Shown here: piece by piece, positions 2,650 to 20,176 of the stretch
Layout: the number at the start of each line of letters is the position of its first letter
How positions within the stretch are numbered: position 1 is the first letter of the stretch
Assembly (NCBI GenBank): GCA_946625715.1
Contig: CAMOTK010000008.1
Location: 1 to 20,186 of the forward strand
Origin: an uncultured Prevotella sp.
GTDB lineage: Bacteria > Bacteroidota > Bacteroidia > Bacteroidales > Bacteroidaceae
Length of the DNA stretch: 20,186 bases
Direction of reading: 5' to 3'
The notes under the pieces: model-generated
What the model saw: the letters and a program-made list of their open reading frames with translations, nothing else
Database searches by the model: none
What the model was told of the DNA's origin: nothing
Program-made: the position numbers and the translations under genes

Positions 2650-5600
2650 TTCTTTTGTTGTTTCAGCCACTGCAGGCGGATGTGCAGGCGGTGCGTTTTC
2701 GAGGCGTCGATGCTGTACTTCTTCAGCACGCCCGGACCGCATGAGGAATTGCCCAGACCGAGCACGGCGCAGTCGATGGAGACATACGTCTGCGAGGGCT
2801 GAGGCAGTTCGAAGTCGTGGGCCGCCGAGGCTATTTCATGGGCCGAGTAGGGCAGGGCCGAGAACGAGAACGGACTGTCGACGGCAGTGATGCGCAGGGC
2901 TTCGCCCTTGGCGGTGCTCACCACCACCTCAGCCGTCTGCTCGTGGTTGCCGTTATCCTGCGGACGGGGATAGTGGGTGAACAGCTTGTCGACGGTACTC
3001 TCCCAGCGTCCGATGGGGCAGGAACGCCAGCGGTCGGGATAGTTCTCCCACGGGCCGCGACCATACCACGACACGTTCTCAAACTGCTTAGGCAGCGCAA
3101 TGCACAGGCCTAAGCGCGGCAGCTCGGGCAGTGTGCCGTGGCACTCGTAGGTCTGCACAAGGTCGATGGTGCCGTCGCTGAGCGTCTGCTGGTCGGTCAT
3201 TACGCGGATATAGCCTTCGGCAAAGCGGTAGTCTGTGGTGCGCTCGTCGACGACCACCACTTCGGCCGAGTCGAGGCGATGGCGTTTCCAGTCCTTTGCC
3301 AGCCAGTTGCCGAAGCTCTTGTCGTTGTCGGTGGGGGCGCGGAAGAACTGGGGGGTAATATTGACCTTCGACCTTTGACCTTCGACCTTCAGCCTTTGAC
3401 CTTCGACCTTCAACCGCCCAACAGCCAAGAGGTTGTCTTCGAGGGCAAACTGGTCGGTGATGACAGTTGCGCCGTCACGCTCTACACGGAGCCAGAGGCG
3501 GGAGTCGGTGCCGTGCTTCCATCGGAAATCGCCCAGTTCGCACACCACGGCACTGTCGCCCGGCGCTGTGTCGGGCAGTGCGAGGCGGCCTTCCTTGGTG
3601 GTCTTGCCGTTCTCCGTAACGAGGTAGTTGCACAGGTATTGGCTGAGGCCGGTGTGGTGGTTGCGGTTGACGACATAGACCTTGCCGTCGTGCTCACTGA
3701 ACTGCACGGGCGAGTAGACGTGCTGCACCTCGTAGTATTTGGCCGAGAGCGAGCGGTCGCACATCACTACGCCGTTCATGCAGAACGCTTTCAAGTTGGG
3801 CTGGTCGCCGAAGTCGCCACCATAGAGAACTGGTGTTTTCTTTGTTCCAGCCCATTTCTCATTTCTCATTTTCCATTTCTCATTGGGCATAATGCCCTGG
3901 TCCACCCAGTCCCAGATGAAGCCGCCAAGCATGCGCGGGTTGCGGTACATCTCGTCCCAATAGTCCTGGAAGTTGCCCAGGGCGTTGCCCATGCAGTGGG
4001 CATACTCGCTGGTCATGACGGGGCGCTGGTCGTCGGTGCGCTCGGCAATCTCGAGCAGGCGTTCCCAGCGTGCATTCTCGGCGCGCTCGGCATCGCTGCC
4101 TTCGGGGATGCCCGGGTTCAGGTATTCGGCCTTGACGCGGGGGTAGAAGCGCGAGATGACGTCGACGGTGGCGGGGTCGGTGGTGGTGCGGGTCATGTCC
4201 GACTGCACCGACTGCGTGCCCTGTGCACCCTCGTAGTGTACGAAGCGGGTGGGGTCGAACTCGTGGAGCCAGCCCGACATGGCGGCGTGGTTGGCACCGT
4301 AGCCGCTCTCGTTGCCTAAGCTCCAGAAGATGATGCAGGGGTGGTTCTTGTCGCGCTCGGCCATGCGGATGACGCGGTCCATGAAGGCGTCGTTCCAGTC
4401 GGGCGTCGAAGCCAGGGTGCCACGCAGACCGTGGGTCTCGCAGTCGGCCTCGTCCATGACGTAGAGGCCCAGCGAGTCGCACAGCTCATACCAGCGCGGC
4501 GTGTTGGGGTAGTGCGACAGGCGCACGGCATTGAGGTTGGCCGCCTTCATGAGTCGGATGTCTTCCAGCATGCGCTCTTCGGTCATTACGCGCGCCAGTT
4601 GAGGGTCGTGCTCATGGCGGTTGGCACCGCGCAAGCGCACGGGGCGGCCGTTGACCAGCAGTTGTCCGTTCTTGATTTGCAGCCAGCGGAAGCCCACCTT
4701 CTGTTCGGCCTGTTCCAGCAAGGTGCCATCGGCCCGCTGCAACTGCAGACGAAGGGTGTAGAGATAGGGCGTCTCGGCCGTCCACTCGTGGGGCTGGCTG
4801 ACCGACATGCTGATGCGGTCGAACTTGCGATAGCCGCGCTGCGGAAACCACGTGTTCATGCGGCCGGCCTTGTGCTCCAGGTCGAGCACCTCGGCAGCAC
4901 TGGCGCCGCCCTCGGCAATGCGCTTGCCGTCGGCGTCGTAGAGGGTGGCCACGATGGTGTCGCCGCGTCCTGTCTCGTTGCCGAAGACGCGCAGCTGCGG
5001 ATTGATTTGCAGTAGGTAGTCGCCGTGGTTGGGAATGGTGCGCACGGTGAAGTCGCGCAGTTGAATGTCGGGCGTGTGGAAGAGCGTCACGTCGCGGTGG
5101 ATGCCGCCGAAGCGCCAGAAGTCCTGGTCTTCCAGATACGAGCCGTCGCTATATTTATAGACCTCGACGGCCACCACGTTTTCTCCTTTCTTTATATATG
5201 GCGTCACGTTGAACTCCGAGGCTTCCATAGAGCCTTGCGAGTAGCCCACGCGCTGACCGTTGACCCAGACGTAGAAGGCCGACATTACGCCGTCGAAGCG
5301 CAGGAAGGTCTGTCCGCCCGATAGCCAGTCGGCCGGCAGGGTGAACGTGCGCTTGTACTGGCCCGTGGGGTTGCGCTCCACGTAGGCCGTGTACTTCTGC
5401 TTGGGCTCGCGGGTGACGTAGGGCGGCTCAATCTTGAACGTATAGCCGGCCGAGGCATAGATGGGCGTGCCATAGCCGTTGACTTCCCAGTTGGCCGGCA
5501 CCTGCAAGTGCTGCCACGACGAGCAGTCGTAGTCGGTGCGGTAGAAGTCTTTGATGCGCTCGTCGGGCGTCTTGGTCCAGCGGAACTGCCAGCTGCCGTT

Positions 5601-5816
5601 GAGCGACAGCATGCGGTCGCCCTTCTGTTGTCCGAACGGCATGAAGGCCGCGCGCGCCGGTTCGCGATTCAATTGCAAGATATGGTTGTTTTCCCAGTCG
5701 TTTTGCGCCCAAGCGTTGGTGCTGGCAAGCATCAGGAGCAAGGCGGTCGCTTTTAGTGAAAGGTAACTTCTCGGTCCTTGAAACGGTGGATTTCGGCGAA
5801 TGAAACGTAACTCCAT
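2646..5816 (-). CDS. GH2 beta-galactosidase, LacZ-type, with two in-frame repeat insertions
   Basis: This periplasmic exo-beta-galactosidase could remove the beta-D-galactose of RG-II chain B or of pectic galactan. The 1,056-residue protein has a signal peptide ending near 38 (ASTNAWA-Q), a jelly-roll (60-240), an Ig-like domain (245-375), a TIM barrel (380-670) with acid/base E503 in SLGNES and nucleophile E604 in TSEYAH, and a LacZ domain 5 with FFRAPTDND (824-832), WYGRGPWENYPDR and PQDNGNH. Two stretches are not family sequence: NEKWKMRNEKW (645-655), in the loop after DWVDQGI, and GRLKVEGQRLKVEGQRSKV (800-818), where domain 5 strands are expected. Both derive from DNA repeats. Catalytic residues remain, so it may be active, but domain 5 may be damaged. 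It is the last gene of the leftward operon, 60 AT-rich nt after its neighbour; no promoter was recognised there. Confidence 0.9.
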   Translation of the reverse strand: MELRFIRRNPPFQGPRSYLSLKATALLLMLASTNAWAQNDWENNHILQLNREPARAAFMPFGQQKGDRMLSLNGSWQFRWTKTPDERIKDFYRTDYDCSSWQHLQVPANWEVNGYGTPIYASAGYTFKIEPPYVTREPKQKYTAYVERNPTGQYKRTFTLPADWLSGGQTFLRFDGVMSAFYVWVNGQRVGYSQGSMEASEFNVTPYIKKGENVVAVEVYKYSDGSYLEDQDFWRFGGIHRDVTLFHTPDIQLRDFTVRTIPNHGDYLLQINPQLRVFGNETGRGDTIVATLYDADGKRIAEGGASAAEVLDLEHKAGRMNTWFPQRGYRKFDRISMSVSQPHEWTAETPYLYTLRLQLQRADGTLLEQAEQKVGFRWLQIKNGQLLVNGRPVRLRGANRHEHDPQLARVMTEERMLEDIRLMKAANLNAVRLSHYPNTPRWYELCDSLGLYVMDEADCETHGLRGTLASTPDWNDAFMDRVIRMAERDKNHPCIIFWSLGNESGYGANHAAMSGWLHEFDPTRFVHYEGAQGTQSVQSDMTRTTTDPATVDVISRFYPRVKAEYLNPGIPEGSDAERAENARWERLLEIAERTDDQRPVMTSEYAHCMGNALGNFQDYWDEMYRNPRMLGGFIWDWVDQGIMPNEKWKMRNEKWAGTKKTPVLYGGDFGDQPNLKAFCMNGVVMCDRSLSAKYYEVQHVYSPVQFSEHDGKVYVVNRNHHTGLSQYLCNYLVTENGKTTKEGRLALPDTAPGDSAVVCELGDFRWKHGTDSRLWLRVERDGATVITDQFALEDNLLAVGRLKVEGQRLKVEGQRSKVNITPQFFRAPTDNDKSFGNWLAKDWKRHRLDSAEVVVVDERTTDYRFAEGYIRVMTDQQTLSDGTIDLVQTYECHGTLPELPRLGLCIALPKQFENVSWYGRGPWENYPDRWRSCPIGRWESTVDKLFTHYPRPQDNGNHEQTAEVVVSTAKGEALRITAVDSPFSFSALPYSAHEIASAAHDFELPQPSQTYVSIDCAVLGLGNSSCGPGVLKKYSIDASKTHRLHIRLQWLKQQKN
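3361..3413. repeat. 21-bp tandem repeat inside the GH2 gene
   Basis: The unit cctttgaccttcgaccttca plus one variable base starts at 3372 and again at 3393, with a partial copy before it from 3361. On the coding strand it reads as runs of RLKVEGQ. Similar AAGGTCGAAGGTCAAAGG strings are familiar to me as intergenic low-complexity repeats in Prevotella and relatives. Here it lies in frame inside domain 5 of the beta-galactosidase. Confidence 0.85.
3852..3884. repeat. catttctcattt-type repeat inside the GH2 gene
   Basis: The 12-mer ccatttctcatt occurs at 3852-3863 and 3873-3884, with a further tctcattt in between, giving a 21-bp period. On the coding strand it reads NEKWKMRNEKW. AATGAGAAATGG repeats of this kind are, from memory, common in Bacteroidales intergenic DNA. 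It sits in the loop between DWVDQGI and YGGDFGD of the beta-galactosidase barrel and keeps the frame. Confidence 0.75.
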
Positions 5817-5876: not shown

Positions 5877-8800
5877 TCATTGTATTTCGAGGGTAGAAAA
5901 CTCGAGCCCCTTGCCTTTGACCACCACCTGATAGGTGCCGGCATTGATTTGGGTGCCGGTGGTGGTGGAGAGCATCTTGAACTTCTTCGGCGTGGGTGGG
6001 AAGGTCACTTCGCGGTCGACGAGCACGGCCTTTTTCACGTCGGTGATGGTCAGACGGGCTTTCACGGGGACGCCACTCTCGTTCTTGTACTTAAAGCGCA
6101 GGGCGTACTCCTGGCCCAAGCCGGGCTTGATTTGCCACTGGCCGGTACCGGCCTTCACAGGCTCGTAGGCTGTGGCCGGACGAGCTTCGGTGTCCTTGGG
6201 CAGTTTTTCCTTGGGCAACTTCTCCATGACCTGATGGTCGAGGGCCTTCCAAGAGAAGGGCGACATGGCCGGCATGGCCTGCACGATGTTCTGCTCCTTG
6301 GTGGCAATGGCAATGGCGCAGACAACGGCCTGTCCGGCTTTCACCTCGGGGAACGAGATGCGCAACCGACCGTTCTTGGCCTTGGCCTTCACCACGCGCT
6401 TCATGGCACCGCAGTAGCCAGCCTCGGCCCAGGGGTCGACATCGGGGCAGACCACCTCGCCGTTGACGGCTATGCTGAAGATGCGCAGACCCTCGTAGTC
6501 GCCGCCCACACGCTGACTGCGGCCGTGCCAAGGCTCCATGGTGTAGATTTCGACGAGATACTCACCGTCGTCGACGCTGAAGTCGTACCACAGGCGGTGG
6601 CGACCGAAGCGGAAGTACTGGAACAGCTCGGCATCCTTTGTGCCGCGAATGGGTTCGGCAATGTGGCGTTGCGAGGCCTGGTAGGGGTTGAGGCCTTCGA
6701 AGTCTTGTGCCCATGAGTGGCTGAACGTCGTGTTGTCCTGCAGCCACATCTGGCCGTAACTGTCGGTGTAGTAGTCGCCGCCGCAGTTGATGCGGTAGAG
6801 GTAGTTCCAGCCCGCAGCCCCTTTGATGAGGTCGTGGTTGCGGTCGGCAGCCGTCACCGTGAGCGGCTGGCCCTCGTCGGGACCATAGTGCTGCTTGTAC
6901 ATATAGTAAGCCTTCGTGGGTTCTTCCCAAATGGTGGTCAGGCCCTTGTAGTTGATGGGGCCAATCTTGTCGACCAGACGGTAGGCGCCGTCGGGCTGCA
7001 CGCGGCCGGGGTTGTCGTGCGACGAGAAGAGCCACTGGAAATGTCCGCAGACGCCCTGCTGGCTCTGGTCGTTGAAGGCTTGTTCGGCCTTCAGGGCCTT
7101 CGTCTCGAGCAGTTTGGTGAAGTTCTCTTCGCTATACTTGGCCTCGCCGTGCAGGTCGATGGTGCGCCAGGCACCATACTCGCCGTTGAGCAGCTGGTTG
7201 GGCTGGCGTAGCTCGTTGTCGTAGTTCTCAGGGTCGCCGCCATAGGTGCCACTCCAGTTCTGGATGACGTTCCAGTCGGAGCCCTCGCCGCCGTTGCAGG
7301 TGGTGATGAGGCGCGAGGTGCCGCAGGTGGGGTCGAGACGGCGAATCAGGTCGCAGCACTCCTGAGCAAACTCCTTGGGCAGCACGCTCTCGTTCTGCAA
7401 GCCCCACAAGACGATGCTGGGCGAGTTGCGGCGCTCCTTAATCCAGCGTACCAGCAGACGCTTGAACGACTGACGGAACTGGGGCGTGTCGTACCAGATG
7501 TGGGCTGAGAACTGGCTCCAGAAGAGCAGGCCCTGCTGGTCGAAGAGTTGCTGATAGAGTAGGTTGTGGGGTTGATGGCCTTCGCGGAAGGCGTTGAAGC
7601 CGGCGTTGCGTATCTGTTTGACGCGGGCTTTAATCTGCTCGTGTGAGAAGGCGTGACTTTGGCCGAACATGTGCTCATATTCGCAGGTGCCGTTGATGAA
7701 CGTGGGCTGACCGTTCAGGTAGAAGCGGTTGTCGTTCTTGGCACCGGCCGACAGTGGCCACGAGGCGGTGCGGATGCCGTAGGGCGTGCGCAGTTCGTCG
7801 GTGGTCTTGCCGCCGCGCTTAATCATGGTCGAGAGGTTGTAGAGGTAGGGATCGCTGAGCGTCCAGCGCTTCGCGTCGGCCACCTTGGCCGCCTGGCGCA
7901 GCATGCGGGTCTCGCCGGGCTGCAGGGTGAGCGTTTCCGACAGGCGGAACACTTGCTTGCCGCTGCTGAGGGTGAACTTGTTGACCAGCTCGATGGCGGC
8001 CGCCTGCTGACTGTAGTTCTTCACTTCTGTCTCGATGAAGACGCTGTCGCAGGCCGTGTTGTTCCAGATGTGTACGCCGAAAGGTTCTACGCGCACTTCG
8101 TCGGTCTCAATCAGTGTGACGGGGCGATAGATGCCCAACGGCTGACTGCCCTCGCTGAAGCCCCACTCCGACGAGCAGCCGCCGCACACCCATGGCGACT
8201 CGGTCTGCAGGGCCGGATGGTCTACGAGGACTTTCAGGTGGTTGTCGCCCGATTGCAGGGCGTCGGTCACGTCGATTGTCCACGACGTGCGCCCAACGAG
8301 TTCTTTCGGATAGCTGTGGCCGTTGAGTGTCACGGTGGCGTAGGTGCCCACGCCTTCGAACATCAGGAAGTAGCGTTTGCCGGCTTTCTTCTCGCTGGCA
8401 AAGGTCTTCTCGTAGGTGGCCTTGCCGTGCAGGTTGCCGTGGCGCAGTTGGCGGTAGCCGTAGTAGTCGTCGAAGTTGTGGGGCAGGTCGATGTGCACCA
8501 CCGAGTCGCCAGCCTCAGGGCAGCGGGCTGTCCAGTTGCGGTTCAGGTTGGTCGTGGTGCGCCGGCCCGTGGCTTCGGGAGCTGGGAAACTCACGGCCGA
8601 GCGGCCCATGGGCACGCTGGTGGCCACGGCGATGCCGCGCTGCTGGGCGTTGTTCACGGCGCAATAGAAGTGGTAGACCACCCCGTTGTGCTTCACCACA
8701 TAGCTCTTATGGGCAAACATCTCGTCGTAGGGCTTGGTGGGGTAGATGAGGTCCGGTCCCTGCCAGTCTTGCCAGTGGATGAGGTCGCGGCTCACAGAGA

Positions 8801-9680
8801 AGGTGTTGAAGGCGTTGTACTTTCTGGCGGGGTTGTAGGCCGAGAAGTAGAACATGACGTAGAGGTCGCCCATGCGCACAATCTGCGCGTCGCCAGTGAT
8901 GATGCCGGGCGCCTCGTGGTAGTAGACGGGGTTGCCCTCGTAGCGCTTCCACTTCTTCAGGTTGTTGCTCAGGGCAATGCCGATGCGCTCGGCTTTCAGG
9001 TTGTTGGCGGGGTTGATGCCACCGGCATTATAGAACATGATAAAGCGCTTGCCGAGCGTCTTCTGCGGGTCGTCGTAGATAGTGCTCTTGTACTGCACTA
9101 ATTTCTCCCACCATTGTACGTCCTTGTCGTTGATGGAGAGCAATGGCTCGTCGTCCGACTGCCACTCATGGGCGGTGCTCACATTGTCCGACGTCCAGGC
9201 CAGACCGATGTTCAGCGGTTCGCGCACGGCCTCGTAGCCCGTGCCGTGGCCACCGATGTAGGTCATCCAATACTTGTTCTTGTACTGGTTGATGGCATAG
9301 GTGCCGCCCCAGGTCCAGTCGATGAGGGCTGGGAAACCGCCGCGCTGGTTCATGTCCCAGCCGCTGTCTTTGTAGGAAAGGATGCGGCCAAGCGTCTGCC
9401 AGTGGAGCAGGTCGTCGGACTGGGCCAGCCACGTCTCGTAGCCGCGGCCGTCGGTGCCTTCCTTGCCGTTGTACACCACGTAGGTCATCAGCCACTTGTC
9501 GCCTTGGCGGAACACCGTGGGGCAGTCTATCTTGTGATAGTTGTCTTGTGGCGCAACTACCATACCATACTTGAACGGTGTCTTCACCTCGTCGTAGATG
9601 CGTTGCATGTCGATGTCGTCGACGGCCCATGCGCCGAGCATCATGCACACTGAAAGGAACGTCAGGAAGTGTCTCTTCAT
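5877..9680 (-). CDS. Bimodular propeller (GH137-like)-GH2 glycosidase
   Basis: The 1,267-residue protein carries two likely catalytic modules. After a signal peptide (cleavage near AWA-V, residue 19) come a five-bladed propeller-like module (21-365) with DCPTVFRQGDKWLM, AQSDDLLHW and YHEAPGIITGDAQ, then a GH2 enzyme: sugar-binding sandwich (376-530), Ig-like domain and TIM barrel (650-930) with acid/base E764 in GLQNES and nucleophile E834 in LLNGEYG. A malectin-like domain (about 1010-1128), a short KLPK-repeat linker and a C-terminal beta-sandwich end it. The order matches, from memory, BT0996 of Bacteroides thetaiotaomicron, where GH137 is a beta-L-arabinofuranosidase and GH2 a beta-glucuronidase acting on RG-II chains B and A. 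The neighbouring GH138-like gene supports this. I could not assign the propeller's catalytic residues, so GH43 is an alternative for that module. LSVC at 9-12 is not a good lipobox. Confidence 0.8.
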   Translation of the reverse strand: MKRHFLTFLSVCMMLGAWAVDDIDMQRIYDEVKTPFKYGMVVAPQDNYHKIDCPTVFRQGDKWLMTYVVYNGKEGTDGRGYETWLAQSDDLLHWQTLGRILSYKDSGWDMNQRGGFPALIDWTWGGTYAINQYKNKYWMTYIGGHGTGYEAVREPLNIGLAWTSDNVSTAHEWQSDDEPLLSINDKDVQWWEKLVQYKSTIYDDPQKTLGKRFIMFYNAGGINPANNLKAERIGIALSNNLKKWKRYEGNPVYYHEAPGIITGDAQIVRMGDLYVMFYFSAYNPARKYNAFNTFSVSRDLIHWQDWQGPDLIYPTKPYDEMFAHKSYVVKHNGVVYHFYCAVNNAQQRGIAVATSVPMGRSAVSFPAPEATGRRTTTNLNRNWTARCPEAGDSVVHIDLPHNFDDYYGYRQLRHGNLHGKATYEKTFASEKKAGKRYFLMFEGVGTYATVTLNGHSYPKELVGRTSWTIDVTDALQSGDNHLKVLVDHPALQTESPWVCGGCSSEWGFSEGSQPLGIYRPVTLIETDEVRVEPFGVHIWNNTACDSVFIETEVKNYSQQAAAIELVNKFTLSSGKQVFRLSETLTLQPGETRMLRQAAKVADAKRWTLSDPYLYNLSTMIKRGGKTTDELRTPYGIRTASWPLSAGAKNDNRFYLNGQPTFINGTCEYEHMFGQSHAFSHEQIKARVKQIRNAGFNAFREGHQPHNLLYQQLFDQQGLLFWSQFSAHIWYDTPQFRQSFKRLLVRWIKERRNSPSIVLWGLQNESVLPKEFAQECCDLIRRLDPTCGTSRLITTCNGGEGSDWNVIQNWSGTYGGDPENYDNELRQPNQLLNGEYGAWRTIDLHGEAKYSEENFTKLLETKALKAEQAFNDQSQQGVCGHFQWLFSSHDNPGRVQPDGAYRLVDKIGPINYKGLTTIWEEPTKAYYMYKQHYGPDEGQPLTVTAADRNHDLIKGAAGWNYLYRINCGGDYYTDSYGQMWLQDNTTFSHSWAQDFEGLNPYQASQRHIAEPIRGTKDAELFQYFRFGRHRLWYDFSVDDGEYLVEIYTMEPWHGRSQRVGGDYEGLRIFSIAVNGEVVCPDVDPWAEAGYCGAMKRVVKAKAKNGRLRISFPEVKAGQAVVCAIAIATKEQNIVQAMPAMSPFSWKALDHQVMEKLPKEKLPKDTEARPATAYEPVKAGTGQWQIKPGLGQEYALRFKYKNESGVPVKARLTITDVKKAVLVDREVTFPPTPKKFKMLSTTTGTQINAGTYQVVVKGKGLEFSTLEIQ

Positions 9681-9693
9681 TTGTTTTTTTTCT

Positions 9694-12342
9694 TTATTTC
9701 ATGAATAGCCAGTCTACTTCGTTGCCACCGCCGTTGAGGCCACAGTCGCGCGGCTTGATGTCGGAGGCGGTGAAGCCGGCTACGAGGATGATGCCGCGGG
9801 GCAGGCGCAGGGTGTGTCGGCCGGCGGGCATGTGGTAGCCGTGGATGTTGATTTTAGGCATCTGCACCAGGCTCAGCGCATTGGTGAGAATAGGCTCGGC
9901 CTGTCCGTATTCGTTGCCCGTGGCATCGACCTCGAGCTTCGGCGGACGGGCCCATTTGTTATCGTCGTCGTTGAAGAAGCCCACCAGCAGTTTTACGGGC
10001 CGCTCGGTCTCGAACGCAATGGTTGTGCCCTTTATGCGCGTGGTGTCGCGGTTGAGCACGATGGCCTGCATGCCAGTCAGTTCGGGTGCCACAGAGTCGA
10101 CGGGGGTGTCCTGACGGCGCTCAAAGAGGATGGCGCCCTTCTGCAGTGGCACGGTCTTGTGGGCCGACAGCAACTTGACCTGTGCCGGCTGTGCCGGACT
10201 AATCACGATGTTCTTGTCGGTGGCGGCAGGGTGCTTCAGCTTGTAGAGATTCTCCTTGAAGGCTTCAAGTTCTTCCTTGTAGACCGTCTCCAGTTCGGTC
10301 CATGTGCACATCTTGCCACCGTCGCCGCCGACAGGAATGCGGCGGTGAGAGGTCTGCATGGAGTTGGCGTAGAGATAGGTCTCGGCAGTCTGCTCGGCCA
10401 GCTGGTGCCAGCACGCCAGGCTCCGCTCCATGAACGGCAGGGCCAGGTCGAGATACTTCACGTCTTTCGTCCATTTGTAGTTCAGCACGTGCTGTGCTGC
10501 CATAATCTTATAGCGGAACGACTCGGCAAAGAGGCAGTAGTACGTGAAGTCCTGTTTTACGCGCTGGAACTCATCCTGATGGCGTGTGGGAACGGCAGTG
10601 ATGGCTTCCACCGCACTGACGGCGGTCTCGCCGTGGCGCAGACATTGGTCGACAATGTCGAGCGGCAGTTCACCGACGTGGGCTTCGCCCTTCCATTCCT
10701 TTTCTACATACTCAATGAGCTTTTCGCCCTCGGGACCGCAACTCTCATAGAAGCCGTGGTAGATATTGAACTTATAGGGATTGACCAGCTGGGCCATCTT
10801 CATGCCCAATAGCAGTGTCTGGCGGTTGCCTTCGGTGATGCCGAAGCGGCGCAACAGCTTCGGTGCAATCTCGCCCGCTTCGTCGTAGGCTTTCAGCAGT
10901 AGGGCAGCGTCGTCGGTAGAGAAACCGTAGTAGTCGGCCAGCTCCTGCTTCCAGTAGTCCTCATCGTTGCCGCGGTCTTGTTTCCAGGCATAGCGCCCCC
11001 ATGCTCTGTACCACATCCAGTCGCGGTCTATCTGCTTCAGGCGCCCGCCATTGGGCAGCCGGTCGGCCGTATAGGGATAGTCCCAGTAGTTGGCCTGCGG
11101 GTAGAGGTGCAGACCGTTGGCGTGGTGCACCTCGTGCATGGCCTTCACCGTCTTCTGCGTAAAGAGTGGCGAAGCCCAGCGCCACGGCTCCAGGTTAGCC
11201 AGAATGTGTACGTTCTCGATGTGGATAGGCGCAGCGGCAGCCAACTGCCGGTGGGTCTCCGACCACGGGCCGCGGGGCTGATAGGTGGTGAGGCTTTCGC
11301 CGTTGTACTTCGACATGGTGTAGATGTTGGGGTAGAGGGGCAGCGACTCGCGAAGTACACGTGGGCCGTCGGTGTCGTGCGAACGGAGCACCACGGGCGG
11401 AATGTCGGTGCGGCCGCGGGCTGCCAGTCCGTCTTTGATACCGGGAATAATCGTTTCCTTCATCCACGTGATGTCGTCTTCAATGGTGGCCATGGCCTCG
11501 CCCAGGCAAACCAGGAAGCCGATGTTGGGATACTTCTCCACAAAGGCGGCAATCGACTTGCGGGTGTAGTCGCTGATAAGTGGTGTGATGGGACGGTTGC
11601 GGTCTTGTGTCTTCAGACCATAGTGGTCGGCAAAGGGTTTCGACAGCAGGATGTTGTAGAACATCTGAATGACGAAGATGCCGCGCTTGTCGGCCTCGCT
11701 GGTCAAGAACGAAAAGACCTCTTCGTTCTTCTTAAACGTCTCCTCGTCGACTTCAAGGGCGAAGGGATAGTCCTTCAGTTTCACGAGCGAGGCGAAGGGA
11801 TGACCGTTCCAGAGGTAGAGCGAGTTCATCTTGTTCTCGACCATCATGTCGAGATACTTCACCCACTCCTGCTTGTCGTAGAACCAGGGGAAGTTTTCCG
11901 GCGTATAAGGATACTCATAGACGGCATGGCCAGGCAGGAAAACGGTCTTCTGAATACCGATACACGTGCCGCGCATCAGCATTTCCGGCTGTTCGGCCGT
12001 AGGCTGGATGTTGAAGTTGCCGGCTTTCTTCACGCGGTCGGCCAACTCCACACAACCATAGATGACACCCGTGCCGTCGTTGCCCGTCACCGTGATGCCT
12101 TTCTTGTCGCAGGCAATGGCATAGCCCTCGGCCGGTCCGGTGGCCGTGTTGCTGAGCGTAATCTTCACGTCGCCCTTCTTCTTGGTCACGTTGTAGCCCA
12201 TGTCGGCCAGTTTCTTCTGCAGATATTGGGCGGCATAAAGCTCGCGGTTGGAAGCCTTCTTGGCTGTGCTGATGCTGACGGTCTGGGCCTCAATGGTCAA
12301 GGCAACCATGGCCAATGCCAGTGTGATGAGTCCTTTTTTCAT
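9694..12342 (-). CDS. GH138-like alpha-D-galacturonidase
   Basis: This is a periplasmic glycosidase probably removing alpha-linked galacturonic acid from the rhamnose of RG-II chain A. The 882 residues comprise a signal peptide (cut near IEA-Q, 19), a small alpha/beta domain like those of GH20/GH67/GH115 (22-110, ending GTGVIYGCVELADRV), a TIM barrel (about 120-450), an alpha-helical region (450-700) and a C-terminal beta-sandwich. Candidate catalytic glutamates are E282 (CLGEAM) and E349 (KYNGES). Their spacing of 67 equals that of the pair E294/E361 I recall for a characterised GH138 enzyme. In B. thetaiotaomicron the GH138 gene BT0997 is next to the GH137-GH2 gene BT0996, the same pairing as here. 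Automated annotation might call it an alpha-glucuronidase (GH67-like) because of the N-terminal domain. It lies 10 nt after the upstream gene and 13 nt before the next. Confidence 0.7.
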   Translation of the reverse strand: MKKGLITLALAMVALTIEAQTVSISTAKKASNRELYAAQYLQKKLADMGYNVTKKKGDVKITLSNTATGPAEGYAIACDKKGITVTGNDGTGVIYGCVELADRVKKAGNFNIQPTAEQPEMLMRGTCIGIQKTVFLPGHAVYEYPYTPENFPWFYDKQEWVKYLDMMVENKMNSLYLWNGHPFASLVKLKDYPFALEVDEETFKKNEEVFSFLTSEADKRGIFVIQMFYNILLSKPFADHYGLKTQDRNRPITPLISDYTRKSIAAFVEKYPNIGFLVCLGEAMATIEDDITWMKETIIPGIKDGLAARGRTDIPPVVLRSHDTDGPRVLRESLPLYPNIYTMSKYNGESLTTYQPRGPWSETHRQLAAAAPIHIENVHILANLEPWRWASPLFTQKTVKAMHEVHHANGLHLYPQANYWDYPYTADRLPNGGRLKQIDRDWMWYRAWGRYAWKQDRGNDEDYWKQELADYYGFSTDDAALLLKAYDEAGEIAPKLLRRFGITEGNRQTLLLGMKMAQLVNPYKFNIYHGFYESCGPEGEKLIEYVEKEWKGEAHVGELPLDIVDQCLRHGETAVSAVEAITAVPTRHQDEFQRVKQDFTYYCLFAESFRYKIMAAQHVLNYKWTKDVKYLDLALPFMERSLACWHQLAEQTAETYLYANSMQTSHRRIPVGGDGGKMCTWTELETVYKEELEAFKENLYKLKHPAATDKNIVISPAQPAQVKLLSAHKTVPLQKGAILFERRQDTPVDSVAPELTGMQAIVLNRDTTRIKGTTIAFETERPVKLLVGFFNDDDNKWARPPKLEVDATGNEYGQAEPILTNALSLVQMPKINIHGYHMPAGRHTLRLPRGIILVAGFTASDIKPRDCGLNGGGNEVDWLFMK

Positions 12343-12352
12343 TTCCGAATGA

Positions 12353-15300
12353 TTACTTTAGTTTGTTCAGGTCGAGTTCTTTGAACACGATGCGCTTGCG
12401 GCGCCAGGTATAGGTGCAGTACACATGACCGTTCTTGCCTTCGATGATGGCGGGGTAGGAGTACTGGTCGATGGGCGAGTCTTCGAGCGTCACGGCATGC
12501 TGCCACTTCTGTCCGTCGTTGCTGACGGCAATGGAGAGCGGCGTGCGCGGTCCCTTCTTGGTCAGGGGCAGCGTCTCGAAGTTGTTGTAGATGAGCACGT
12601 GCTGGCCCTGCTTGGTGGTCACGGCGTCGGTGCCGCTCTGGTTGTTCTCCACCTCAGAGAGCGTTACGGGCGTCCACGTTTCGCCTTGGTCGCTGGAGAA
12701 CGAGGTGGCCAGTCGGGCGTTGTGGGTGCGCATGAGCACTTGCAGACGGCCATCCTTCAGTTGCAGGAACGACGGCTGGATGCAGTCGATGGGGTGCGGC
12801 TGGTTGTCGTCGGTCTTGGTGGCCACGGTCGATTCTACGGGGATGTATTTCCACTGGTTGCTCTTCAGGTCGAGCATTTCCACGTGGAAGCGCCAGCCGT
12901 TGCCTTCGGTAGAAGAACCGCAGAGCAGGCGGTCGCCCAACAGCAGGGGTTTGTTCTTGATGGGACCAAGGAAAGCGCGGCCTTCAGCGTCGGTGGGCAG
13001 CGGTTCCTTGTCGCTCCAGGTGCGGCCGCCGTCCTTCGACTTGCTGAGCCAGCCCGTCCAGTCGCCTACCGACGAGCCAATCTTGAAGAAGAGCCACAGT
13101 TCGCCGTTGGGCATTTCAAACAGCACGGGGTTCCAGCACGACTTGCGCTTCAGCGTTTCGGGAACGTTCTGCAGTCGGGTGGTCTTCGTGGTGTAGTCGT
13201 AGTTCTCCTCGTCGGTCAGGCCCTTGGTCTTGGCCTTCTTCCAACTGCTCTGTCGGATAGGTCCTTTGGCGGCAGGCGTGGTCTCGGCGTTCATGCCCGA
13301 CAGGCCAGCCTTTGCGGCACGCGCATCGCTCAGGTCGAGCACGCCGTCGGCAGCCAGAATGGGCTTGCTCCACACGTTGCTGCCCTTCTTCTTGATGTTC
13401 ACCCAGATGCAGACATCCGGGTCGCGCTCGTGAGTGCCGCCGAAGTAGCCGGCCACGAGGTCGCCGTTCTTCAGTTCCACGATGGTCGAGGCATGGGCTT
13501 CGGGGAAGTAGGTGTGCTCATAGAGGAACTCGTCGGCCACGATGGCGGCATCGGATGTGGGAATATCGACGTTGAAGTCGTAGCTGCCCGAGCCGATGGT
13601 CTTCACCTCGCCGCCGGGCAGACAGACGTCGGCCGTGGTGTTGGCGGGAATCTCCACATGCCACTGCAGCTTCTGCAGCGTCTTCTTCCACTTGCTCACC
13701 ACCTTGCCGTAGGGCGAGTCGTAGCTGGCGTTGGTCCATTCGCAGTCTTGGATGTCGAACGAAGGTTTCAGGGTGATGTGCTTGTAGGCATCGTTGCTGC
13801 GTATGCCGCCCAGATACTGGTAGCACCAGGTGAGCAGGTCGCCTAAGAGCATGACGTGGTTGCCGCTGTTCATGCGCGGGTTGGCCTTGTCGCCGTTCCA
13901 CAGTTCCCAAATCGTTGTAGCACCCTGTTCGGCCATGTAGCCCCACGAGGGATAGCTCTTCTGCGTGGCCACGAGCCAAGCCACATCGCTGAAGCCATTG
14001 TCGCTGAGACCGCGGAGCAGCCATGAGATGCCGATGACGCCGCAGGTGACGTGACCATTGCCCGTAGTGATGATGTTGCTCACCACGTTCTTCACCACCT
14101 CAGCCTTGTATTCCTCGGGCACGATGCCGAAGGCCAGCGGCAGCAGGTTGGCCGTGGCCGTGTTGTTGGCATAGAACACAGAGTCGGGGAAGAGCACATG
14201 GCCGGGCCGGGGCGACGTGCCTTTCTTCACGGTAAGGAACTTCTCATTGAACGCCTTCGTCATGGCCTCGCGCTGCGGACGCCAGTAGTCGGCCTCGCAG
14301 CCCCACTGCTCCATGAGCTGCATGGTGCGGATGATGTAGGCCGTGGAGAGCAGGGTGACGTCGGTCTTGCGCGTCGGGTCCTGCGAGTGAATCAGTTCCA
14401 GACTTTCCGGGGGCAGACACCAGTCGGCATACTTGCCGCAGTTGACGATGCCGTTGCGACCATATTCGCCCACGATGTGCTCCACCCACTTCTTGATGGC
14501 CGGATAGCTGCGGTCGATGGCCTCGCGGTTGCCATACTGACGGTAGAGCATGTCGCAGGAGAAGGGCAGGGCGGCAGCCCAGCACACATCGTCGCTGTAA
14601 TAGTTCCAGAAGGCCGGCGCCACGTCGGGAATACAGCCGTCGGTGCGCTGAGCCTCGCAGATGTCGCGCATCCACTTGGTGTAGAGGCGCTCGTTGTTCA
14701 TGAGGAACGACTCGCCCAGCGAGCCCACGGTGCGGTCGCCCAGCCACGGCTGGCGCTCGTCGCGCTGCGGACAGTCGACGGGCATGCCCTTGTAGTTGTC
14801 GGTGATGCCCCACCAGGCGTTCTTCATGACCTTGTTCAGTATCGGACTGGCACACTCGAAGGTGCCGGTCGTCTGCATGTCGTCGGCCACGAGTTCGCCC
14901 ACAATCTCTTCGGCCGTGAGCGAACTGAAGCCCGAGATTTCGGCATACTTGAAGCCGTGGTAGACAAAGGTCGGTGCCCACCAGCGGTCGTTGCCCTCTT
15001 CGCCGTTGCATATATAATAATCGGTAGAGCGGGCGTTGCGGAAGTTGTCGCGATAGAGCGAGCCGTCGGCATTGAGCTTCTCGGCATAGATGATGCGGAT
15101 GGTGTCGCCCTTCTTTCCGTGCATCTTGATTTTCAGCCAGCCGGCAATGTTCTGTCCCAGGTCGACGATGACCGACTTGCCGCGCTTGGTGAGCGACACG
15201 GGCTGAATCTGGCGGAGCACCTTCATGCCCTCGGTCATCTGGCCGCGCAGCATGGCTTGGGGAATGTCGGTGCGCTCGGCCTTCATCCACTGGCTGTCGT

Positions 15301-16219
15301 CGAAGCCCACCTTGTTCCAGCCCTTCATCTCCATGCGGGCGTCGTACTCCTCACCGTCGTATTCGTTGTTGGCGCGAATGGGGCCGTTGGCCGTCACCTT
15401 CCAGCCCTTGTCGTCGGTCTGCAGGCGCTGCTTGGTGCCGTCCTCATACTCCACGATGACGTTGATGCGGCACTTGGGATAGCCGAAGGTGTGAATCTTG
15501 TAGGCCTTGTGCTGCTGCATGGGGAACATGCGGCCGTTGCCCAGTGCGATGCCCAGACAGACATCCTCGCTGCCGGTCAGCTGCGACGTGACGTCGTACG
15601 TATTATAATATATGGTCTTGCGGTAGTCGGAAGGGACGGGCGTGAGCACACGGTCGCCGATGCGCTGTCCGTTGACGAAGAACTCGTTGACGCCCAGGCC
15701 CGAGACGTAGGCCAGTGCGCGCTTCACGTTCTGCTGCTTCAGCTTGAACTCCTTGCGCAGATAGCGGGCGGCCATGCGGGTGTGCATGCCCCGTGCCTCG
15801 CCCGGCAAGAGCTGTTCCAAGCCAATCCAGTAGCCGCTCCACTTCGACTCGTTGAGCAGACCGATGCTGAAGTGCTGGTCGGCGCTCCATTCCGTTTCGC
15901 CCTTGTTGGTGAACACTTTTACGCGCCAGGTGCAGAACTGTCCGCTCTGCAACTTCCGTCCGCCGTAGGGCACCCACAGCTGCTGGTCGCTCTGCACCCT
16001 GCCCGAGTTCCATAGTTCGCCTTTGTCGTCGCTGACCACAATCTGGTAGGCCGTCTGGCGCACGTCGTTCTGGTCGGAAGCGGTCTGCCACGAGAAGCGT
16101 GGCTGGTCGGTGTCGATGCCCAAGGGGTTCTGCAGGTTCTCCACCTTTGGATTCTGAATGCTCACCTTGGCCATGAGCTGCAAGGGAATGAGCAGCGATA
16201 GTAACAGCAGTTTCTTCAT
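12353..16219 (-). CDS. GH78 alpha-L-rhamnosidase fused to a BNR/sialidase-like propeller
   Basis: The 1,288-residue protein joins two modules. Residues 1-880 are a complete GH78 alpha-L-rhamnosidase: signal peptide (cut after LMA, 17), Ig-like and jelly-roll domains, then an (alpha/alpha)6 barrel with the general acid E488 in DCPQRDERQPWLGD and the base E772 in GATTIWELWNG. Residues 895-1288 are a BNR_2 sialidase-like propeller: EAHASTIVELKNGDL, FGGTHERDPDVCIW, CWNPVLF, Asp boxes at 1061-1068 (SKDGGRTW) and 1175-1182 (SSDQGETW), a degenerate one at 1233, and RTPLSIAVSND plus YSYPAIIE near the end. Arginines 1164 and 1225 and tyrosine 1255 are candidates for a 2-keto-acid binding site. A segment at about 958-1026 looks inserted. 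RG-II chain C is Rha-(1-5)-Kdo, so the fusion may remove both sugars. GH78 is certain; the propeller's activity is inference. Confidence 0.9.
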   Translation of the reverse strand: MKKLLLLSLLIPLQLMAKVSIQNPKVENLQNPLGIDTDQPRFSWQTASDQNDVRQTAYQIVVSDDKGELWNSGRVQSDQQLWVPYGGRKLQSGQFCTWRVKVFTNKGETEWSADQHFSIGLLNESKWSGYWIGLEQLLPGEARGMHTRMAARYLRKEFKLKQQNVKRALAYVSGLGVNEFFVNGQRIGDRVLTPVPSDYRKTIYYNTYDVTSQLTGSEDVCLGIALGNGRMFPMQQHKAYKIHTFGYPKCRINVIVEYEDGTKQRLQTDDKGWKVTANGPIRANNEYDGEEYDARMEMKGWNKVGFDDSQWMKAERTDIPQAMLRGQMTEGMKVLRQIQPVSLTKRGKSVIVDLGQNIAGWLKIKMHGKKGDTIRIIYAEKLNADGSLYRDNFRNARSTDYYICNGEEGNDRWWAPTFVYHGFKYAEISGFSSLTAEEIVGELVADDMQTTGTFECASPILNKVMKNAWWGITDNYKGMPVDCPQRDERQPWLGDRTVGSLGESFLMNNERLYTKWMRDICEAQRTDGCIPDVAPAFWNYYSDDVCWAAALPFSCDMLYRQYGNREAIDRSYPAIKKWVEHIVGEYGRNGIVNCGKYADWCLPPESLELIHSQDPTRKTDVTLLSTAYIIRTMQLMEQWGCEADYWRPQREAMTKAFNEKFLTVKKGTSPRPGHVLFPDSVFYANNTATANLLPLAFGIVPEEYKAEVVKNVVSNIITTGNGHVTCGVIGISWLLRGLSDNGFSDVAWLVATQKSYPSWGYMAEQGATTIWELWNGDKANPRMNSGNHVMLLGDLLTWCYQYLGGIRSNDAYKHITLKPSFDIQDCEWTNASYDSPYGKVVSKWKKTLQKLQWHVEIPANTTADVCLPGGEVKTIGSGSYDFNVDIPTSDAAIVADEFLYEHTYFPEAHASTIVELKNGDLVAGYFGGTHERDPDVCIWVNIKKKGSNVWSKPILAADGVLDLSDARAAKAGLSGMNAETTPAAKGPIRQSSWKKAKTKGLTDEENYDYTTKTTRLQNVPETLKRKSCWNPVLFEMPNGELWLFFKIGSSVGDWTGWLSKSKDGGRTWSDKEPLPTDAEGRAFLGPIKNKPLLLGDRLLCGSSTEGNGWRFHVEMLDLKSNQWKYIPVESTVATKTDDNQPHPIDCIQPSFLQLKDGRLQVLMRTHNARLATSFSSDQGETWTPVTLSEVENNQSGTDAVTTKQGQHVLIYNNFETLPLTKKGPRTPLSIAVSNDGQKWQHAVTLEDSPIDQYSYPAIIEGKNGHVYCTYTWRRKRIVFKELDLNKLK

Positions 16220-16246: not shown

Positions 16247-17704
16247 TTATTCGTTCAGGTTGCGGGCTTTGCCAGCCATGGTCTTGTCGCTCACTTCAAT
16301 CTGGTCTTTCTGCAGATAGTTTTTCGAGGCATCGACGGCAATGAGCACACCGTCTTCCACGCCGAAGCCCTGCTTGTGCATGCGGAAGGTGAGCACCTTC
16401 GAGTCGTACTCGCCCAAGTAGCGCAGTCCGCCCGTGCCGGCATTCATCCACCACACTTGCTTCTTCTCGCCCGAAATCTTCGTGAAGTCGAGCTTCATCA
16501 CGCGGCTGGTGTAGTTGTAGACCAGCAGGTAGTCCTGTCCGCGCGTGGCGATGAGGCGGTCATACTGCGTGCCGTTGTCCAGGATGATGCTTTGGTCGGG
16601 CACGCGGTCGAAGACGGGGAATGAGAGCATGAGGTTCTTCAGATACTTCATCTGGTTGAAGCCCGGGTCTTCGAGGGCCTCATACCAAGGCTTCATCTTG
16701 GCCACGTCGCCGTAGCTAGTGCCGTGGCCGGGCTTCCACATCTGCATAATGGCGTTATGGCCATAGGTGTGGCCAAACGAACCGGCGAACACGCTCCAGT
16801 AGGCATAGCGGCGCACGTCGCAGGCCTGCCAGTACTGCTCGTTCTTGTCGTGCAGGCCCTTGGGGATGGCCTCGTAGCTGGGCTCGCCGTCGAGCACCGG
16901 CTTGATGGGCTTATAGGCCCACGTAGAGTCCACGTACATCCAGTTGTCTTCCTCGGTGTTGTCGGGGATGGGATAGTCGGCGTTGCCCATGCGCTGTCCG
17001 TACTTGCGGTGTCCGCTCTGGAACATGTGGAAGTCCATCCAGTCGGCCTTGCTCCACCACTTGGCCGAGGTGTAGCGTCCGCGGGGATGGTAGGTCATGA
17101 GGTGGTTTTTGTCGATAGACTTGATGGTCTTGGCCAGCGTTTCCCACACGTCGGGGTTGATGTCGCCCTGAATGTCGCCACCCATAATCCAGATGATGTT
17201 GGGGCTGTTCTTGTAGCGGTTGGCCAGGAACGTGCCGTACTTCTTGGCATCCTGAGCCGTGAGCAGACCGCGCTTCACGAGTCCGCCCCAGATGCACACC
17301 ATGCCGATGTAGATGCCGTTCTGCTCGGCCTGACGGATGATGTAGTCCATGTGGTCCCAGTAGCCGTAGACGCCCTTCTGATTAATCTTCGAGAAGTCCC
17401 AGCCGTCGATGTTCGAGAGCTGTCCGTAGACGTTCATGGCGGGCACGCCGTCGATGGTCTGCACCTGCACCACGTTGTAGCCGGCCTCGCGGCAGCGTTC
17501 CAGGTAGTAGCTGGCCTCGCCGCGGTCGAGCTGTTCGGGCAGCAGCCAGCCCGTTTCGCCCAGCCAGAAGAAGGGCTCGCCGTTTTCAAACTGCAGGAAT
17601 CGCTGGTTCTGCGACACCTGTAACTTTCCGTTCTCCCAAGGCTTGCCGGCCTGAGCCGCCGTGGTCAGGAGTGCAAGCGCCAGTATAGTCAGTAGTTTTT
17701 TCAT
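16247..17704 (-). CDS. GH140 apiosidase
   Basis: GH140 enzymes (formerly DUF4038) cut the bond between D-apiose and the galacturonan backbone of RG-II, freeing side chains A and B. The 485-residue protein has a signal peptide (cut at AQA-G, 19), a TIM barrel (about 30-365) and a small C-terminal beta-sandwich. Typical motifs are PFFWLGETGW, IIWIMGGDIQGD and KPVLDGEPSYE. D177 and E274 are the likely catalytic pair; their spacing of 97 equals that of D187/E284, which I recall for the B. thetaiotaomicron apiosidase BT1012. The length is usual for the family and the gene appears intact. It sits 15 nt after GH95 and 27 nt before GH78. Since apiose occurs in few polysaccharides, this gene is a strong marker for RG-II as the target. 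Confidence 0.9.
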   Translation of the reverse strand: MKKLLTILALALLTTAAQAGKPWENGKLQVSQNQRFLQFENGEPFFWLGETGWLLPEQLDRGEASYYLERCREAGYNVVQVQTIDGVPAMNVYGQLSNIDGWDFSKINQKGVYGYWDHMDYIIRQAEQNGIYIGMVCIWGGLVKRGLLTAQDAKKYGTFLANRYKNSPNIIWIMGGDIQGDINPDVWETLAKTIKSIDKNHLMTYHPRGRYTSAKWWSKADWMDFHMFQSGHRKYGQRMGNADYPIPDNTEEDNWMYVDSTWAYKPIKPVLDGEPSYEAIPKGLHDKNEQYWQACDVRRYAYWSVFAGSFGHTYGHNAIMQMWKPGHGTSYGDVAKMKPWYEALEDPGFNQMKYLKNLMLSFPVFDRVPDQSIILDNGTQYDRLIATRGQDYLLVYNYTSRVMKLDFTKISGEKKQVWWMNAGTGGLRYLGEYDSKVLTFRMHKQGFGVEDGVLIAVDASKNYLQKDQIEVSDKTMAGKARNLNE

Positions 17705-17719
17705 AAAGCTATATGTTTT

Positions 17720-20176
17720 TTACAAGATGATATATTCCTTTCCGGGTTCCGTCTTCAGGTCGTAGAGATAGGTCTTGGGCAGTTCCACTGCCTCCGGCGC
17801 CGTCTTCACGATAGGCGCTTTCGGCTCGATGGTCTGGAAGAAGCTGTTCGGGTTGTTGCCCCGTGCCTTCTTCAGGCCCTTGCCCTTCAGTGGCGTGATG
17901 GAGCGCAGTCGGCAGTTGCCGCCGTTCTTCGAGCGCACCACGAGCTTCTCCAGTCGGCCCTTCTTCCAGTCGATGTCCAGTTCGAAGCCGCCGCGGGCCA
18001 TGAGTCCCTTCACGCTGCCCTCTTCCCAGGCTGTGGGCAGTGCGGGCAGAATGAAGATGCAGCCGTCGTGGCTCTGCATGAGCATCTCGGCGATGCCGGC
18101 CGTGCAGCCGAAGTTACCGTCGATTTGGAAGGGCGGATGGGCATCGAACATGTTGGGATAGGTGCCGCCGCGCTGCTTATTCGTGCCGAAGATGAGGAAC
18201 GTGTCGGCCGTGAGCGTCAGTTGGTCCTTGATGAGCTTCAGGGCGTGGTTGCCGTCGAGGAAGCGTGCCCACGAGCACACCTTCCAACCCATGGACCAGC
18301 CCGTAGAGACGTCGCCGCGATGGATGAGCGACGTGCGGGCAGCCTGCCAGAGTTCGGGCGTGCGGAAGGGCGAAATCAGGTTAGACGGATAGAGTCCGTA
18401 GAGATGCGAGAAGTGGCGGTGCTGGTCGTTGGGGTCGTCGACGTCCTCGAGCCACTCCTGCAACTGTCCCCAGCGGCCCACCTGCATGGGTGCTAATTGG
18501 GCTAATTGCGCACGGAGCGTCGACAGCAGGGCGTCGTTGCGGCCCAGGGCTTTGGCGGCCATGAGCACCTCGTTGAACAGTTCGGTCACAATCTGGTTGT
18601 CCATCGTGACGCCGGCATCAATCTGTGCGCCGCGGCCCTTGGGCGTGTTCTCAGGCGACACCGCCGGACAGACCACGAGCCACCCGTTGGCAGGCTCCTT
18701 GACCATCGTCTCGCTGAGGAAGCGGGCGGCGTCGAGCATGATGGGGTAGTACTCGGCCAGGAACTGCTTGTCGCCGGTGTAGAGGTAGTGCTCCCAGAGA
18801 TGGCGGCAAATCCAGGCGGCACCCGTCTGCCACATGCCGCTCGACGCGTGGTCGACGGGAGCCGTGATGCGCCACTGGTCGGTGTTGTGGTGGAGCACCC
18901 AGCCGTTGGCGCCATACATGCGCTGTGCCGTGTCGTGGCCCGTCTTGCTGATTTCGCGAATGAGGCGGAACAGCGGGCCGTTCATCTCCGTGAGCTGTGC
19001 CACCTCGCTGGGCCAGTAGTTCATTTCGAGATTGATGTTCGTGGTGTATTTCGAGTCCCACGACGGGTAGAGTTTCTCGTTCCAGAGGCCCTGCAGGTTG
19101 GCGGGGTTCATGTCGCCGGGCTGCGAGGCCGAGATGAGCAGGTAGCGGCCAAACTGGAAGTAGGTGGCCACGAGATGGTTGTCGGTGACGGAGCTGAAGC
19201 GCTCGATGCGCTTGTTGGTGGGCATGTCCTCGTAGCGGTTGGGGCCGAGGTCGAGGTCTACGCGGTTGAAGTATTTGCCGTAGGCCTGCTTGTGCTGACC
19301 GAAGAGCGTCTCGACGTCGACGGCCGTGGCACTGTGCAGCCGCTCGCGCGACTGTGCAGCCTCGTCGCCCGTGATGTCCTTGTAGCTGCGCACGTTGGTG
19401 CCCACGGTGATGTAGAGCACGGCCTCGTCGGCACCCACCACACTGATGTTGCCGTCCTTCTGACTGACCTTGCCGCCGCGGGCCTTGGCCGTCATGCGGC
19501 CCTGGAAGCACACCTTGCCCTTCACGCCCTCGTGCTTCGGCGTGACGCCGAGCAGCGTGGCCTCAAGGCCCTCGCCGCCGATGAGCACGTTGTCGTGGGG
19601 CGACGTCATGTTGGCCGTGAAGCTGATGTGGCCGGGCTTGCTGGCCGTGAAGCGCACCACGATGGCTTTCTGTCCGCCCATGGCGGCGAAGGCCTCGCGC
19701 TGGTAGCGCACGCCGTCGACGGTATAGCTGCTGCGCACCACGGCCTCCGAGAGGTCGAGCTCGCGCTCATAGTCGGTGTAGTTGGCGTGGCCGGGCATGG
19801 CTACATAGACGTCGCCGAAGGGCTGGAAGGGCATGCCGCAGTTCTGTCCGGCTCCCAGCGGCATGAGCTTCTGGTCGGCCAGCTGCTGAGCTTCCCTGTA
19901 TCGGCCTTCGAAAATGAGCTGGCGCACCTTGTCGAGGTTGTCCTTGGCCTGCGGGTTGCCGATGGTGTTGGGCTGTCCGGCCCAGATGGTCTCCTCGTTC
20001 ACCTGCAGTCGTTCCACGGCAGGTGTGCCGAAGACCATGGCGCCGAGTGTGCCGTTGCCGATGGGCAGGGCCTGTGTCCAGGTCATGGCGGGGCGGTTGT
20101 ACCATAGTTTATAGTCGCGAGCCGCAACACTAAGGGTCATTATGAGGGCGGGCAGTAGGGTGAGGTGTCGTTTCAT
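17720..20176 (-). CDS. GH95 alpha-L-galactosidase / alpha-L-fucosidase
   Basis: This is an inverting exo-glycosidase acting in the periplasm, in RG-II probably on the alpha-L-galactose that caps GlcA in chain A. The 818-residue product has a signal peptide (cut near SVAA-R, 19), an N-terminal beta-sandwich with [13 protein letters not shown] and [10 protein letters not shown], an (alpha/alpha)6 barrel and a C-terminal sandwich. Likely catalytic residues are the acid E574 in GQLQEWLED and the water-activating pair N380/N382 in [14 protein letters not shown]686 lies in FQIDGNFG. T378 stands where, as I recall, fucosidases such as AfcA have histidine and L-galactosidases have threonine, which favours L-galactose. 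The ATG at 20174-20176 is only 10 nt from the window edge, so the promoter or an upstream gene is not visible. It is the first visible gene of the leftward operon. Confidence 0.9.

Follow-up and report, generated by a model that had tools for sequence, protein, structure and literature searches.

An uncultured Prevotella contig of 20,186 nucleotides (GenBank CAMOTK010000008.1, assembly GCA_946625715.1) carries a gene in which a glycoside hydrolase family 78 (GH78) alpha-L-rhamnosidase is fused to a sialidase-like propeller of the BNR_2 type. The window, which is the whole stretch of DNA analyzed, is a contig in full length (G000:C8) and comes from a genome of 1.87 Mb that is 65% complete. The protein is well supported as an enzyme of rhamnogalacturonan II (RG-II) breakdown and is probably one acting on chain C; we give a probability of about 0.72 to the prediction that it is a secreted or periplasmic two-step exo-enzyme of this chain. 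In the first step, as GH78 homology suggests, the GH78 module would take off the terminal alpha-1,5-L-rhamnose with E488 and E772 as acid/base. In the second step, to which the fold, the tree and the locus point, the propeller would cut the ketosidic bond of the exposed 3-deoxy-D-manno-octulosonic acid (Kdo), whose carboxylate may be held by His909, Arg1164 and Arg1225; here Tyr1255 would be the nucleophile and Glu931 the acid/base. Computed support covers the domains, the fold, the residue equivalences and the RG-II linkage, and the activities, the residue roles and the sequential action of both modules on one chain are predicted. RG-II ranks with the most complex polysaccharides of plants, and knowledge of the Kdo-freeing domain and its chemistry matters for understanding gut bacterial pectin use and for RG-II-trimming tools.

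The domain assignment was done by Pfam along with alignment to solved structures. Five GH78-type domains lie in residues 21-877 (PF17389 with 325 bits and four further GH78 domains), and the module matched 6i60 with 496.5 bits over residues 25-868. E488 is found within RDERQPW and E772 within TTIWELW, both of which align with the corresponding motifs, RDER and TT.WE.W, in the solved enzymes 3w5m and 6i60, and this pair is taken by us to be the catalytic acid and base of GH78. A six-hairpin catalytic domain, accessory GH78 domains and the Glu pair are all present, as would be expected for a GH78 member, and the reading frame with a complete GH78 described in the initial annotation was thus confirmed by Pfam and motif alignment. 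An N-terminal hydrophobic signal-like stretch was seen by eye. The C-terminal part scored 239.9 bits for BNR_2 over the whole protein (cut-off 31.4; best stretch residues 1021-1268) and has two intact Asp boxes, one starting at 1061 (SKDGGRTW) and one at 1175 (SSDQGETW). Its fold matches are sialidases, which are 14-19% identical to it in those structural alignments that were listed, so the sialidase propeller with Asp boxes that was proposed earlier, and that GH33 also has, is present here. Residues around 960-1024 are variable among relatives.

On the minus strand the genes of the window follow the order GH95, GH140, GH78-propeller, GH138, GH137-GH2, GH2 and truncated GH106. From this gene content the window can be firmly predicted to be an RG-II locus, because the GH138 protein is near the solved BPa0997 and both the GH138 and the GH137-GH2 proteins score above their NCBIfam cut-offs; the RG-II context claimed by the initial annotation is upheld by the GH140, GH138 and GH137-GH2 neighbours. 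The two-part enzyme is widespread among relatives. When propeller-region matches were scored among 7991 candidate proteins, a set restricted to similar length, at least 1607 matched, and the 120 matches listed all have GH78 and BNR_2 Pfam domains, some of them truncated; the idea of the fusion as a rare or chance event was rejected on these counts. Carriers include Bacteroides xylanisolvens, B. faecis, B. cellulosilyticus, Phocaeicola, Prevotella, Segatella, Paludibacter and Muribaculaceae. For named genomes the best 80 loci, out of more than 80 that exist, were used: the fusion is present in 78, a GH140 was found in the examined DNA of 59, and seven more fused loci have another of ten RG-II markers sought.

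The linkage to GH140 was further measured in a family sample of 249 genomes with thresholds of E <= 1e-20 for the propeller and E <= 1e-90 for GH140. The propeller was found in 48, GH140 in 51 and both in 45 genomes (Fisher p 3.5e-39, a value overstated by the relatedness of the genomes). The two genes lie within 400 bp of each other in 40 of these 45 and about 2 kb apart in two, the gap table covering 42; the remaining three (G407, G423 and G323) have the genes on other contigs or far apart. The suggested check of co-occurrence thus gave a tight linkage. In G423 and G407 (L153 and L154) the fusion stands apart from RG-II genes and adjoins a TypA/LepA-type GTPase gene, named by eye, and GH140 is elsewhere in both genomes. 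Three genomes have the propeller only: in G351 the fusion adjoins GH138 and GH137, and in G267 and G403 the propellers are without GH78 and in other settings. The G351 locus (L152) looks like a rearranged one; its fusion matches only from residue 295 onward, and a 2770-residue frame on the opposite strand overlaps the start of the fusion at the expected GH140 site. In an order sample of 247 genomes drawn evenly, the propeller was found in 29, GH140 in 15 and both in 13; the ten best propeller matches were all from GH140 genomes, 16 propeller genomes have no GH140, and two of the 13 genomes with both (G061 and G065) have a propeller that the tree does not place in the RG-II branch. The genome sets overlap (G145 and L080, as well as G407 and L087, are the same contigs), and so the samples are not independent.

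A tree of 43 propellers, midpoint-rooted for drawing only, placed all 23 RG-II-labelled rows on one side of a split with support 100/99; this side holds 26 rows (the 23 and three others) and the other side 17. The label needs 3 changes on the tree as against a mean of 14.6 in shuffles, and it includes L046, a fusion around which no RG-II marker was seen, and L156, whose genome has its GH140 on a different contig. Within the RG-II branch the propeller occurs fused to GH78, separate beside GH78 (L157, L192), fused to an isomerase-like barrel (L188, L189) and with all three parts together (L066). Domain shuffling of this kind suggests a separate function of the propeller in the breakdown of RG-II.

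The barrel fusions, with or without GH78 and in RG-II-type loci (L066:6730-11331, L188:6501-8438, L189:7904-9889), involve a xylose-isomerase-like TIM barrel, assigned by PF01261 in L066 and by 49% identical pieces in L188 and L189, and a third activity on a released sugar is possible for it. Other arrangements were also seen: in L189:5855-7897 a GH140 has a C-terminal piece like the C-terminal part of a DUF3826 (BT1017-like) protein; in L191:5413-7425 a propeller and part of an SSS-like symporter are encoded by a single 671-residue frame; and at L067:3640-4794 the propeller gene stands alone, flanked by hisA-like and hisF-like genes that were named by eye. Outside the RG-II branch, three homologous loci from three families (L197, L198 and L199, of G205, G186 and G007) have a propeller beside a dihydrodipicolinate synthase/sialate lyase-type aldolase and an SSS symporter, both named by eye, and these neighbours fit the release of a 2-keto-3-deoxy acid.

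The active-site positions were compared in 23 RG-II-labelled and 17 other propellers, the equivalences resting on alignments; L068, L150 and L151 were kept out of the second set, as the tree groups them with the RG-II rows. Arg1164, Arg1225 and Tyr1255 are invariant (23/23 and 17/17), D1198 is kept in 40/40, and E1105 and K1090 in 39/40 each. Arg932, present in 18 of the 23 and 5 of the 17, was rejected as a pocket arginine. The conserved Arg and Tyr set of the initial annotation therefore stands for three residues, and its four-residue arginine pocket does not hold as named, with His909 at the first sialidase Arg position. When five Bacteroides-type sialidases were aligned along with propellers in two MAFFT modes, the R1 column (of the [YF]RIP motif) had His in 21/21 rows, and in the larger comparison His was found in 23/23 and 16/17 rows (one gap); in hhalign the R1 end is outside the reported block or of near-zero confidence. 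Of the GH33 Arg triad, R2 (R1164) and R3 (R1225) are kept and R1 is replaced by His. Arg1225 falls on a sialidase Arg in the hhalign and MAFFT alignments and not in those to NanC and NanB, in which R1164 lines up with the sialidase Arg, Q1148 with the Glu and Y1255 with the Tyr. The catalytic Tyr of GH33 is present as Y1255 in the NanC alignment and both MAFFT modes, and hhalign places Y1253 there. The columns which we take to be the acid/base Asp and the Tyr-activating Glu hold Glu931 (39/40, one gap) and Gln1148 (40/40), and neither canonical residue was found by NanC/NanB, hhalign or MAFFT alignment; on these two positions the propeller was not filed as GH33. In sum, it shares with GH33 exo-sialidases (Micromonospora 1wcq, NanB/NanC and Bacteroides-type ones) the propeller, the Asp boxes and the R2, R3 and Tyr positions and differs from them by His909, Glu931 and Gln1148.

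These replacements, above all the loss of the Tyr-activating Glu and the first Arg, could have ended catalysis and left a substrate-binding domain or one acting on another acidic sugar. We consider this unlikely, because the conservation of R1164, R1225, Y1255, D1198, E931, E1105 and K1090 is more than binding would seem to need and because stand-alone propeller copies occur in RG-II-type loci. An alternative in which the propeller is a genuine sialidase for host sialic acid, present in an RG-II locus by accident, would agree with the fold matches, yet the Arg triad and the Glu are not kept, and the locus and the tree position are RG-II-linked, which makes it very improbable. A tentative joint reading, to which we give less than even chances, is that the propeller represents a separate subfamily of the sialidase fold that has a rebuilt site and stands apart from classical GH33, and that one branch of this subfamily has specialised for RG-II Kdo while shuffling with GH78 and the isomerase-like barrel. 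It would have a His-Arg-Arg carboxylate clamp, a Glu acid/base and Gln for the Tyr-activating Glu, the replacement base possibly being the invariant Asp1198 or the near-invariant Glu1105, and its Kdo branch would be marked by Asn1193, Lys1222, Thr1226-Pro1227, Gln1252 and Arg1273. Such a site, if true, would show how ketosides can be cleaved by a sialidase fold that has neither the classical Arg triad nor the Tyr/Glu pair.

The substrate was considered next to that of a second RG-II enzyme. In the available part of PMC12282258, chain C ends in alpha1,5-L-rhamnose and chain D in beta1,5-arabinofuranose, and the two chains bear Kdo and 3-deoxy-D-lyxo-heptulosaric acid (Dha) in alpha2,3 and beta2,3 linkages to the backbone; the rhamnose-on-Kdo chemistry assumed earlier for chain C agrees with it. 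Dha is likewise a 2-keto-3-deoxy acid of RG-II, and the fold cannot separate the two, so that the propeller might take Dha of chain D, or both acids, with the fused GH78 acting on another rhamnose. A BT1020-like protein, presumably the GH142-GH143 enzyme for arabinofuranose and Dha, bears on this point: it also combines a propeller with a hairpin-type glycosidase domain in RG-II-type loci, but its propeller is of another family (PF24067, weak BNR_2 match) and it is a separate gene. It matched in 40 of the 48 propeller genomes of the family sample, including the window's own on another contig (G000:C163). The other eight gave no match, and this gap speaks for the Dha alternative. Six genomes with a BT1020-like match and no propeller have partial, distant copies only. 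Rhamnose ends chain C and not chain D, matching the GH78 partner, and with a separate BT1020-like gene present Kdo is preferred over Dha; the Dha alternative seems rather improbable, and the rhamnose-Kdo end of chain C is the better guess for the target of the fusion.

Several results weigh against the chain C reading. Twelve of the 78 fused named loci show none of the ten RG-II markers in the DNA examined (four of them span less than 7 kb of DNA). Among the seven that have a marker other than GH140, the sole marker in four is a GH95 of 35-46% identity, and such evidence is weak. Beside the three fusions of the family sample that are away from GH140, six of the 51 GH140 genomes have no propeller (G322, G394, G432, G433, G465 and G470), and two of these, G322 and G432, have a GH78 49-50% identical to that of the window. 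To these are added the eight propeller genomes with no BT1020-like match and the change of three of the six sialidase catalytic positions; as the three changes are common to non-RG-II propellers, those sites give no pointer to Kdo.

The idea largely follows known RG-II enzymes, GH33 Kdo hydrolase and GH78, and the unusual active site is the exception. Bacteroides-type relatives share the order GH95 - GH88 - GH140 - GH78/propeller with BT1017-, BT1018- and BT1020-like genes nearby (names of this type are our assumption), and in comparison with the modules of G458 and G484, identity is about 55% for the GH78 of the window and 51-52% for its propeller. The B. thetaiotaomicron counterpart would be BT1013, judging from synteny and its position next to the GH140 BT1012; its record is outside the best 80 loci. 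The earlier statement that BNR_2 specificity is not well defined is outdated: the parts available of two papers give 'Kdo hydrolase' for GH33 in an activity table (PMC9120202) and, in 2024, GH78 rhamnosidases and GH33 Kdo hydrolase among the RG-II enzymes needed (PMC11214529). The pectin-induced polysaccharide utilization locus PUL 2 of B. xylanisolvens (GH28, GH33, GH43, GH78, GH95, PL1), described in 2016, was proposed for RG-II and is homologous to a B. thetaiotaomicron locus up-regulated on RG-II, according to the available text (PMC4769552). In that strain, locus L071 has the fusion together with homologues of GH95, GH140 and GH28, and we infer that L071 is PUL 2 and that the GH33 of PUL 2 is this propeller. 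Further partial sources give BT1012 as an apiosidase (PMC7939467), an alpha-rhamnosidase colocalized with BT_1012 (PMC4032388) and RG-II as substrate of the BT0977-30 locus, the part available not naming the fusion gene (PMC3243724). No description of the fusion by gene was found among open-licence papers.

Table 1. Coordinates of the fusion, its modules and the neighbouring genes in the window.
Feature	Position	Strand	Evidence
GH78 - sialidase-like (BNR_2) fusion, 1288 aa	12353..16219	-	Pfam, motif check
GH78 alpha-L-rhamnosidase module, residues 1-890, E488 and E772	13550..16219	-	Pfam, alignment to solved GH78
Sialidase-like propeller module, residues 891-1288; H909, E931, Q1148, R1164, R1225, Y1255	12356..13549	-	Pfam, alignments
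GH140 apiosidase, RG-II marker, directly upstream of fusion	16247..17704	-	Pfam Apiosidase 380.8 bits
GH95, alpha-L-galactosidase/fucosidase family	17720..20176	-	Pfam
GH138 alpha-D-galacturonidase, near BPa0997 (6hze)	9694..12342	-	~1180 bits; NCBIfam NF049878 1332.1 bits, cut-off 1300
GH137-GH2, beta-glucuronidase/beta-L-arabinofuranosidase type, with malectin	5877..9680	-	NCBIfam NF049877 2021.8 bits, cut-off 1800
GH2 beta-galactosidase-like	2646..5816	-	Pfam
GH106 rhamnosidase, gene cut by contig end	3..1091	-	Pfam, NCBIfam

The GH2 beta-galactosidase-like gene recurs in 12 of the 80 named loci above the threshold used. No plasmid match to the window was found in a near-identity search, and a search with a guessed repeat pattern gave no match. 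An odd neighbour for an RG-II locus is the AAA ATPase gene on the opposite strand (1411-2649, +), which is SpoVK/CbbX-like, below the cut-offs for both families, and has an acidic N-terminal stretch. Tandem repeats, both in frame, are present at 81-149 in the truncated GH106 frame (an 18-bp unit in 3.8 copies) and at 3363-3415 in the GH2 gene (7/21-bp units).
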